Origin: Oscillospiraceae bacterium | Lineage (GTDB): Bacteria > Bacillota > Clostridia > Oscillospirales > Ruminococcaceae | Reading direction: 5' to 3' | NCBI GenBank assembly: GCA_017439985.1 | Contig: JAFSIC010000006.1 | Location: 1 to 43,067, forward strand | Length of the DNA stretch: 43,067 nt | Part shown: positions 9,273 through 28,094 of the stretch, piece by piece | Layout: every line of letters starts with the position of its first letter | How positions within the stretch are numbered: position 1 is the first letter of the stretch | Position numbers and translations under genes: made by a program | The notes under the pieces: model-generated | Database searches by the model: none | What the model was told of the DNA's origin: nothing | The model's input: the letters and a program-made list of their open reading frames with translations, nothing else

Positions 9273-9316
9273 TTCAGCAGAGACTGTCTTTGAGACAGTC
9301 TCTGCTTCTTTTTGTC
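9273..9316 (+). terminator. Terminator of the phosphohexomutase gene
   Basis: Stem AGCAGAGACTGTCT/AGACAGTCTCTGCT with a three-base loop, then TCTTTTT. A second small hairpin TTCCGCA/TGCGGAA follows at 9332-9350. Confidence 0.88.
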
Positions 9317-9359: not shown

Positions 9360-9387
9360 TTGCAACTGCAGGATTTTATGTTATAAT
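9360..9387 (+). promoter_or_regulatory. Promoter of the corA leader transcript
   Basis: TTGCAA (9360-9365), 16-base spacer, TATAAT (9382-9387). Transcription from here would give a leader of about 150 bases before corA. Confidence 0.75.
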
Positions 9388-9394
9388 TAGACTG

Positions 9395-9544
9395 TTATAG
9401 GAATACCCAAGGGCGTGTTGCGCCCAATTGATGATTTCAAATGATATTGAGGTGAACGTATGAATCCTGACCCGAGTAGCAGTAAACAGAAAATCAGCGG
9501 TCAGGACTCTGCAAAGGCTTCCTGATCCGGAAAGAAGGTCGCCT
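9395..9544 (+). promoter_or_regulatory. Structured corA leader with mutually exclusive hairpins
   Basis: A first hairpin GGGCG-TGTTG-CGCCC lies at 9411-9425. Inside the leader ORF, segment A TCCTGACC (9465-9472, the codons for Asn-Pro-Asp-Pro) is perfectly complementary to segment B GGTCAGGA (9499-9506). Segment B is also complementary, with one G-U pair, to segment C TCCTGATC (9520-9527), which contains the leader stop codon and ends just before the corA ribosome binding site (AAGAAGG, 9532-9538). A:B and B:C cannot form together. No T-run follows, so control would act on translation or Rho rather than an intrinsic terminator. The pairing is seen; the function is inferred. Confidence 0.6.
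9460..9525 (+). CDS. 21-residue leader peptide upstream of corA (M-N-P-D-P start)
   Basis: A short ORF with an excellent ribosome binding site (GAGGTGA, four bases before ATG), starting M-N-P-D-P-S-S-S-K-Q and ending 19 bases before corA. The alternating Pro/acidic opening resembles the MgtL peptides that precede the Mg2+ transporter gene mgtA in enterobacteria (MDPEP in Salmonella, MEPDP in E. coli), where such codons destabilise ribosomes at low Mg2+. The gene downstream here is also a Mg2+ channel of a different family. The hairpin segments it contains link its translation to RNA folding. No experimental evidence. Confidence 0.65.
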   Translation: MNPDPSSSKQKISGQDSAKAS

Positions 9545-10477
9545 ATGCTCAATTTCTATAAAACTATCAACAATCGTATTGAAGAAATCTCTGCCATGGA
9601 AGAAGGCTGCTGGGTAAGCGCCATCGCACCGACTGAAGAAGAAGTATCTTTCCTGGTGAATACGCTTCGTATCGACCCGGACTTTGTTCGCTCCGCATTG
9701 GACGAAGAGGAAGCTTCCCGTGTTGATACCGACGACGAAAACAACACTCTTGTCATCGTCGACGTTCCGATCGCGGAAGGCCAGAAAGAGGATAACACCA
9801 TCGTTTACTCCACCATTCCAATGGCAATCATTTATACACCACAGCAGGTCGTTACCATCTCCCTGAAAACCAATTCCATCATCGAAGAGTTTCGTCAGGG
9901 CGTGGTGAAAAACCTGCAGACAGCACAAAAAACACAGTTTCTGCTGAAGCTGCTGCTTCGTATCGCGACCCGCTTCCTGCAGTATCTGAAACAAATCGAT
10001 AAGCTGTCCACTACAACGGAGAGTTTGCTTCATAAAATGATGCGTAATAAGGAGATCATCCAGCTGCTGAACTTGGAAAAATCTCTGGTTTACTTCTCCA
10101 CTTCTCTGAAATCCAACGAGGTCACACTGGAAAAAATCATGCGTGGCCGCATTATTAAGCTGTACGAAGAAGACGAAGATCTGCTGGGCGATGTCATCAT
10201 CGAGATCAAGCAGGCAATCGAGATGTGCAGCATTTATTCCAACACCCTGTCCGGAACCATGGACGCTGTTTCGTCCATCATTTCCAACAATCTGAACAAC
10301 GTGATGAAAGTTCTGACTTCTCTGACCATTATCATGACGATCCCAAACATCATCTTTGGTATGTACGGCATGAATGTCAGCGGACTGCCGTTCCCGACTT
10401 TCGGCGCTGCCTTTGCAATGGCAGCTGTTCTGATGCTCATCGGCACCATCATACTGAACCGGAAGGGCCTGTTATAA
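9545..10477 (+). CDS. corA: CorA-family magnesium/divalent cation transporter
   Basis: 310 residues: a soluble alpha/beta N-terminal domain, a long helical stalk (about residues 130-240), then two membrane helices at the C-terminus with the signature Gly-Met-Asn at 275-277 (in MYGMNVSG) between them. This motif forms the pore entrance of the pentameric channel. Usual CorA length. The ribosome binding site AAGAAGG is weaker than most in the window, which suits control by the upstream leader. No intrinsic terminator is seen before murA. Confidence 0.95.
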   Translation: MLNFYKTINNRIEEISAMEEGCWVSAIAPTEEEVSFLVNTLRIDPDFVRSALDEEEASRVDTDDENNTLVIVDVPIAEGQKEDNTIVYSTIPMAIIYTPQQVVTISLKTNSIIEEFRQGVVKNLQTAQKTQFLLKLLLRIATRFLQYLKQIDKLSTTTESLLHKMMRNKEIIQLLNLEKSLVYFSTSLKSNEVTLEKIMRGRIIKLYEEDEDLLGDVIIEIKQAIEMCSIYSNTLSGTMDAVSSIISNNLNNVMKVLTSLTIIMTIPNIIFGMYGMNVSGLPFPTFGAAFAMAAVLMLIGTIILNRKGLL

Positions 10478-26351: not shown

Positions 26352-26425
26352 TGCCCGATTGTGTAAGGGTAGCACGACAGACTCTGACTCTGTTTGTCTG
26401 GGTTCAAATCCTAGTCGGGCAGCCA
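26352..26425 (+). tRNA. tRNA-Gln (anticodon CTG)
   Basis: Acceptor TGCCCGA/TCGGGCA, anticodon stem ACAGA/TCTGT around loop CTCTGAC (anticodon CTG), T arm CTGGG-TTCAAAT-CCTAG, encoded CCA. This reads CAG codons. Confidence 0.95.
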
Positions 26426-26428
26426 CCA

Positions 26429-26462
26429 TCAAAATCCCAATCCTTAGTGATTGGGATTTTGA
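26429..26462 (+). terminator. Perfect hairpin between tRNA-Gln and tRNA-Pro
   Basis: TCAAAATCCCAATC (26429-26442), loop CTTAGT, GATTGGGATTTTGA. The stem is 14 perfect pairs and the T-run is only four. It may be a weak terminator or an RNA-processing element, since no good promoter is seen for tRNA-Pro alone. Confidence 0.6.
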
Positions 26463-26484
26463 CTATCCGGAAATATTTTTCCAA

Positions 26485-26561
26485 CGGGGTATAGCGCAGT
26501 TTGGTAGCGCGCTTGGTTCGGGTCCAAGAGGCCGTGGGTTCGAATCCCGCTACTCCGACCA
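26485..26561 (+). tRNA. tRNA-Pro (anticodon CGG), integration target
   Basis: Acceptor CGGGGTA/TACTCCG (one G-U), anticodon stem CTTGG/CCAAG around loop TTCGGGT (anticodon CGG), T arm GTGGG-TTCGAAT-CCCGC, encoded CCA. The sequence from the last base of the 5' anticodon stem onward (26516) is repeated at 32358, so the mobile element entered at the anticodon loop and the complete gene was kept. Confidence 0.95.
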
Positions 26562-27671: not shown

Positions 27672-28094
27672 TTATGACAAGAACTGCTCATAAATCGCCT
27701 GTTCGTCTATTTCTCGTACATCAAAGGTTTGCCAGTTCTCTTTCTTCGGAATTTGTGTGTTGAGGCACGGACGATACTCACGAATGTATTCGCCCTCTTT
27801 CTCTCCAATCTCCCAATCAATCGCTAAATAGTTTGTATTCTTTGCGTAATACAGCACTCCAAAAGTGATAGGATGTCCCTGTCGCTGAATATCTGACATG
27901 ATGCAGTATTTCTTTTTAGTCCGCAAACGGATTCCGACATAGTGTTGCGCCACACGCTTTAACATATTAGTGCTTTTTCCAATATAAACAATCGTCTTGC
28001 CTAACTGGATAAAGTAAATTCCTGCGTGCTCATATTTTTCATCATACCCTTGCCGTTTGAGGAAGTGGTACATATTATCTTGATAAGTTGCCAT
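27672..28094 (-). CDS. GIY-YIG nuclease-domain protein
   Basis: 140 residues. Gly25-Ile-Tyr27 and Tyr37-Ile-Gly39 give the motif; Arg47 and a downstream Glu (EGEYIREYRPCLN) match the catalytic positions. The fold is a small single domain as in phage or plasmid accessory proteins. It may nick or cleave DNA in replication, repair or element mobility; the exact function is unknown. Its ATG overlaps the stop codon of the upstream winged-helix gene (TAATG), so the two are translated together. Confidence 0.88.
   Translation of the reverse strand: MATYQDNMYHFLKRQGYDEKYEHAGIYFIQLGKTIVYIGKSTNMLKRVAQHYVGIRLRTKKKYCIMSDIQRQGHPITFGVLYYAKNTNYLAIDWEIGEKEGEYIREYRPCLNTQIPKKENWQTFDVREIDEQAIYEQFLS

Follow-up and report, generated by a model that had tools for sequence, protein, structure and literature searches.

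The corA gene in the window, that is, the whole 43,067-nucleotide stretch of DNA that was analysed, is preceded by a short ORF that is a genuine, conserved regulatory leader. Clostridial leader peptides of this type probably sense low Mg2+ through an early faltering of the ribosome, and we regard it as likely that this ORF acts in cis as an MgtL-like leader peptide, controlling corA translation through the pausing or destabilization of ribosomes at low Mg2+.

The features of the locus are collected in Table 1. A terminator-like site after the phosphoglucomutase gene would set the leader and corA apart as a unit from this upstream gene. The small hairpin of the 5' leader has a similar counterpart with changed bases in the two nearest relatives, as judged by eye. 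The preliminary description had noted that the ORF possesses a better ribosome binding site than corA itself, which agrees with the Shine-Dalgarno (SD) motifs found at the two genes (GAGGTG versus the weaker-looking GAAGG). The encoded channel scores 97 bits with the NCBIfam corA model TIGR00383, under the cut-off of 200.75. The covariance-model scan of the leader region returned zero Rfam families at the gathering score, the M-box (RF00380) being absent at this score as well. The M-box, which occurs in the leaders of bacterial Mg2+ transporter genes, is a Mg2+-responsive aptamer RNA without a peptide; none was present among the matches up to an E value of 1 in 14 relatives, including the window's own stretch (L002). 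The genome behind the window comprises 1.68 Mb in 63 contigs. Further along the window, between positions 28001 and 32000, the G+C content decreases to 0.37-0.39 and the GC skew is positive with respect to the rest, possibly marking acquired DNA; two tRNA genes (26352-26558) are placed just ahead of this stretch.

Table 1. Sequence features and predicted structures around the corA gene of the window.
Feature	Position	Strand	Basis
Terminator-like hairpin 3' of phosphoglucomutase gene (pgm)	9276..9306	+	Consensus scan; 14 pairs, then T-rich tail
Promoter-like site TTGCAA-16-TATAAT, TG ahead of second hexamer (extended -10)	9360..9387	+	Consensus match only
Small hairpin GGGCGU-GUU-GCGCCC in 5' leader	9411..9425	+	Predicted fold
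Leader ORF Shine-Dalgarno (SD) GAGGTG	9449..9454	+	Sequence
Leader ORF, 21 codons, MNPDPSSSKQKISGQDSAKAS, opens M-N-P-D-P	9460..9525	+	ORF scan; x-x-[D/E]-P start in 74/80 relatives
Codons 2-5, Asn-Pro-Asp-Pro, proposed pausing/abort motif	9463..9474	+	Conservation
Arm 1, UCCUGACC	9465..9472	+	Sequence
Arm 2, GGUCAGGA, partner of arm 1 or arm 3	9499..9506	+	Sequence, fold
Closed hairpin (predicted) with part of corA SD (9536-9538) and start codon	9511..9548	+	Fold
Arm 3, UCCUGAUC, across leader stop codon region	9520..9527	+	Sequence
corA SD GAAGG, seemingly weaker than leader SD	9534..9538	+	Sequence
corA, CorA-family Mg2+ channel, GMN motif	9545..10477	+	Pfam PF01544, E 3.7e-52

The start of the ORF is conserved. 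The 260 nt ahead of corA contain a start codon with x-x-[D/E]-P directly after it in 74 of 80 related loci, usually behind a strong SD; this count comes from a search without an SD rule, and an SD list lacking GGGGGTGG undercounts the leaders. The six misses were L008 (MNPDA), L018, L021, L035, L062 (MSGDS) and L070; the MNPDA leader (L003/L008) is that of a near relative. A comparison of related corA leaders had been proposed in the preliminary description as a check, and for the ORF its outcome is positive.

Genomes drawn more widely contained a corA relative in 52 of 147 cases for the class (49 upstreams read) and in 63 of 199 for the phylum (28 further upstreams read). An SD-preceded M-x-x-D-P was present in 19 of these 77 upstream regions and missing from 58, with one locus whose corA start is mis-anchored (L177) retained as a miss; the same pattern appeared in 2 of 784 windows taken elsewhere in these loci, in none of the 77 reverse complements and in 2 of 1540 shuffles. 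When any SD-preceded acidic/proline leader was accepted, the count rose to 33 of 77 (44 without), versus 14 of 676 control windows. Starts such as MDADP, MDTDP, MDCDP, MGADP, MEADP and MDGDP occur across several families, together with the variants MDDP, MDSGP and MDSDG, and many upstream regions of these draws have no leader at all. The reading of the ORF as an MgtL-like leader peptide is strongly supported by this distribution, which is broader than had been supposed, M-x-x-D-P being a conserved start ahead of corA in many clostridial families. Four corA loci of family f31 (L145, L146, L147 and L150) show no M-x-x-D-P leader; by eye, L145 and L147 show a terminator-like hairpin (GGTCCGC...GCGGACC, with a T-run) and L146 and L150 carry short ORFs with the ending ...PLSRTF, and this family perhaps uses a transcription-attenuation version.

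Searches blind to the identity of the next gene pointed in the same direction. Among 394 genomes of the order, an SD followed by M-[K/N/S/R]-P-D-P gave 18 matches, of which 16 are directly before a CorA gene, a figure that measures specificity and not discovery since the pattern was drawn partly from loci of the same genomes. With M-D-x-D-P, 15 matches were obtained in 293 genomes of the class, eight before corA, two before mgtE and the remaining five at the starts of long unrelated frames. Because of the two mgtE cases, the upstream regions of mgtE genes were inspected directly. A mgtE relative is present in 96 of 146 class genomes (query NCBIfam mgtE, 520 bits), and an SD-preceded acidic/proline leader was found in 20 of 30 upstream regions (gene starts anchored by alignment where flanks were cut) versus 8 of 336 control windows. 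These leaders start with sequences such as MDFDPLPS, MDPEPLSG, MDSGPLPG and MDPVPLPV, close to that of E. coli MgtL (MEPDPTPLP in the K-12 record), which extends the earlier MgtL comparison to a second gene. An SD followed by M-D-x-x-P-[L/F]-P matched 15 times in the 293 genomes, 12 times before mgtE (one of these, L231, placed by its position in the mgtE homologue search) and three times elsewhere. The link of the leaders to CorA and MgtE genes is thus established.

An M-box was detected in 8 of 20 mgtE loci scanned, and in five of the eight (L198, L209, L210, L212 and L215) a MgtL-like peptide leader belongs to the same mgtE gene, located in L209 and L212 between the riboswitch and mgtE. Such an arrangement suggests two Mg2+ gauges in series. 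A NiCo riboswitch was also noticed near one mgtE locus (L208, 349-436). For other transporters the association is a weaker hint than for corA and mgtE: leaders were seen in 4 of 19 MgtA genes above the cut-off (among them MDSCP, MDGSP and MDTYP at L248, L253 and L254) and in 3 of 30 CNNM genes (MDDSP, MDDIP and MDDSP at L295, L297 and L301), while none appeared in eight P-type ATPases below the MgtA cut-off, three of the 11 fetched having been excluded for in-frame stops. The CNNM genes, considered as a clean negative control, were rejected as such on account of those three leaders.

The leaders before corA differ in their spacing. In the compact type, represented by 44 distinct sequences, the leader starts 85-125 nt before corA. 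In a short-spaced architecture (16 loci) it starts 58-70 nt before the gene, and all 16 ORFs cross the corA start and end within the gene, at a depth of 23 to 101 nt. A long type (183-224 nt, MSSDPWSRKR) occurs for example in Flavonifractor and Pseudoflavonifractor.

A closer look at the window leader confirmed the three complementary arms reported in the preliminary description. Arms 1 and 2 form a perfect stem of 8 bp and arms 2 and 3 one of 8 bp including one G-U pair, and this arrangement, with the arm 1:2 stem and arm 2 also able to pair with arm 3, was matched in 0 of 2000 shuffles in which the first 18 nt were held fixed and the remainder shuffled; the first stem alone was equalled in 27 of 2000. 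The fold of positions 9455-9560 is mildly more stable than that of shuffled sequences (z -1.80, this stability being equalled or exceeded in 10 of 200 shuffles), and in the predicted structure arms 1 and 2 are paired (P 0.99) and the closed hairpin is also formed. In an alignment of seven sequences (A1) the arms appeared by eye out of register from one sequence to another, and for this reason an alignment-free shuffle test was used instead of column-based covariation. It evaluates a stem at the SD region (3:4) together with a rival upstream stem (2:3) in which the 5' arm of 3:4 takes part. Both stems were stronger than in shuffles in 24 of the 44 compact leaders (p≤0.05, with a p floor of about 0.01 and related leaders counted separately), and the arms therefore exceed chance in about half of them. 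In five of these 24 (L013, L041, L045, L046 and L047) the 3' arm is placed at -22 to -15 and reaches no further than the edge of the SD region. In six the leader ends immediately ahead of arm 2, which a finishing ribosome would cover, thereby leaving the SD hairpin closed, and in 16 a ribosome at codon 5 is clear of arm 2. The stem that uses codons 2-5 (arm 1) reached p≤0.05 in 6 of the 44 leaders, namely L059, L071 and four from the genus of the window, and two further distinct leaders of that genus do not have it; arm 1 is mostly not conserved. The window leader itself was not significant in the 2:3/3:SD stem score (p 0.27) and fits the switch scheme by complementarity, not by this score. 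The RNA switch that had been proposed for the window has some support for the leaders as a class, and little from the stem score of the window or from the codon 2-5 stem.

The accessibility of the corA SD was modelled by folding 60 leaders, the 44 compact ones included, with a ribosome at different positions. The modelled exposure in the window was 0.44 for the free RNA, 0.51-0.56 with a ribosome on codons 4-5 and 0.68 when the ribosome is at the stop codon, and the means for the compact leaders were 0.47, 0.54 (P site at codon 3 or 5) and 0.71, respectively, this last position being one in which the ribosome often overlaps the SD itself. Placing codon 5 in the P site increased the exposure with respect to the free RNA in 15 leaders, decreased it in eight and left it unchanged in 21. 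The rise that would correspond to the freeing of the corA SD by a ribosome on codons 4-5 is present in the model and small. The highest modelled exposure, with the ribosome at the stop, would run counter to the proposed switching direction; occupancy folding lent this direction little support and was dropped as evidence for it. The maximum at the stop is the behavior anticipated from plain translational coupling, in which the leader would be translated constitutively, termination about 20 nt before corA would open the hairpin and re-initiation would follow with no Mg2+ sensing, and the distance of 19 nt between leader stop and corA in the window fits this scheme. We nevertheless consider coupling of this kind unlikely, given that leader stops are found from more than 140 nt ahead of corA to 101 nt within the gene, so that no single coupling distance explains the conserved start, that conservation is placed on the first five codons, and that the same start precedes MgtE genes.

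The codon usage of the leaders gives information on what is maintained. It was tabulated for 75 distinct leaders pre-selected by a start-xx-GA.-CC. pattern (two of them by a relaxed search), and the counts of Asp/Glu4 and Pro5 in this table are therefore conditional, the unconditional figure being the 74 of 80 loci given above. All four proline codons are used at codon 5 (CCT 53, CCG 16, CCC 3 and CCA 2), Asp4 is encoded by GAC in 71 leaders, and codon 3 is Pro in 49, with the other codons variable. Leader length ranges from about 13 to more than 50 codons and the sequence varies beyond the first residues. As a result of this variety of codons and lengths, the target of selection seems to be the opening residues of the ORF, not a whole protein, and the bias towards GAC would allow for some constraint at the RNA level. 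After Asp-Pro, codon 7 encodes Gly or Ser in 62 of these selected leaders, AGT and CGA are found repeatedly at codons 7-10 (with 19 instances of CGA at codon 8), and this region of the corA leaders is perhaps a second slow spot.

The predominance of Asp-Pro codons could also be read as the mark of another translation stress, such as the state of charged tRNA-Pro, of EF-P or ABC-F factors, of polyamines or of energy, with Mg2+ transport only indirectly involved. There are enterobacterial parallels in the accessible text of two reports, mgtP responding to charged tRNA-Pro (PMC8092293) and EttA modulating MgtL (PMC11282234). This explanation seems to us distinctly improbable, as the leaders are tied to two unrelated families of Mg2+ transporters and as the proline found at codon 3 in only 49 of 75 leaders indicates that the number of prolines is not what is kept. 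A structured RNA element in which the ORF is incidental would account for the nearly uniform GAC codons and for the overlap of arm 1 with codons 2-5 in the window. It is highly improbable in view of the use of all four proline codons at codon 5, the rarity of arm 1 pairing, the overlapping leaders, which have no room for the arms, and the lack of any Rfam match above the gathering score. Finally, the position of a short conserved ORF beside a membrane channel gene would suit a small protein acting on CorA in trans, which is scarcely credible for a product that varies in sequence and length past its first residues and whose start is the same before MgtE.

In the MgtL-like mechanism that we favor, ribosomes would initiate from the strong SD of the leader and encounter Asn-Pro-Asp-Pro as part of the first five codons. 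With ample Mg2+ translation of the leader would proceed, and the SD and start codon of corA would remain in, or return to, the closed hairpin (OFF). At low Mg2+, ribosomes would pause or be destabilized at the early acidic and proline codons, and with arm 1 covered, or arm 2 kept free of later ribosomes, arm 2 would form its stem with arm 3, opening the ribosome site of corA (ON). In the overlapping architecture a finishing ribosome would have to cross the corA start, and an abort at codon 5 would leave this start uncovered. We infer from the sequences that the leader is translated, that Mg2+ is the signal, that ribosomes abort rather than stall stably, and that the switch operates in this direction; sensing of Mg2+ is argued from gene context and from the enterobacterial precedent, and the precedents of MgtL and mgtQ suggest destabilization or drop-off in preference to a stable arrest.

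On a wider reading our opinion is evenly divided: Clostridia and their relatives may have a Mg2+ regulon that spans several families (CorA, MgtE and in part MgtA/CNNM) and is governed by MgtL-type translation-abort leaders, including a structure-free overlapping version and versions stacked behind an M-box. If this is true, ribosome instability would be an ancient or repeatedly evolved gauge of cellular Mg2+ and not an enterobacterial speciality. MgtL, mgtQ and corL were described in enterobacteria, and the clostridial leaders extend the same start chemistry to two unrelated Mg2+ transporter families; if so, ribosome destabilization would be a general bacterial Mg2+ sensor. The leaders would also point to a means of control for corA genes that lack a riboswitch, their natural motif variants (NPDP, DADP, DSGP and DDP) would provide material on what destabilizes ribosomes, and the overlapping type represents a minimal design that is directly testable. 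No such leader was found described for Bacillota in the open PMC literature, preprints and most subscription papers being outside this scope.

Among known systems, the M-box shares with these putatively Mg2+-responsive leaders the place at Mg2+ transporter genes, as in the eight mgtE loci above, and differs in being an aptamer RNA with no peptide and in not being found in the window. A mycobacterial M-box with a uORF is a different arrangement, as far as the accessible part of its report describes it (PMC12810186). The uORF corL, also placed ahead of a corA gene, is expressed inversely to corA in enterobacteria; unlike the clostridial leaders it contains few proline and acidic residues, and Rho-dependent termination is involved (PMC11552253, in the portion available). 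The Salmonella mgtQ, an intergenic ORF before mgtB, is similar in its acidic codons near the start, which impede the leader and promote a switch from 1:2 and 3:4 pairing, with the RBS in 3:4, to a 2:3 pairing that opens the mgtB RBS. According to the accessible text of the same report (PMC8092293), however, mgtQ has eight codons with Asp2 and Glu5, is located inside an operon, and its Pro4 acts by pairing and not as a residue, whereas the constant part of the clostridial leaders is Asp-Pro at codons 4-5 and their arm 1 is mostly not conserved. Chadani et al. (2017) is cited as the study behind the work on MgtL, mgtQ and corL in the available sections of PMC11282234, PMC8092293 and PMC11552253.

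The closest likeness is to MgtL, the leader of mgtA in E. coli and Salmonella, which is likewise short, preceded by a strong SD and located ahead of a Mg2+ transporter gene, with acidic and proline codons at its very start (M-E-P-D-P in E. coli, M-N-P-D-P here). The mgtE leaders additionally share its later x-P-L-P, a striking resemblance. The clostridial leaders belong to another class of bacteria and serve other transporter families, CorA and MgtE. In the parts of the reports at hand, MgtL ribosomes drop off or abort on EPDP at low Mg2+ (PMC11282234) and the effect is exerted on Rho-dependent termination (PMC11282234, PMC11552253), whereas the arms described here point to the SD of the transporter gene, that is, to translation. 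The peptides are too short to trace descent and the likeness is one of resemblance; the leader most likely works in the way of MgtL and mgtQ.
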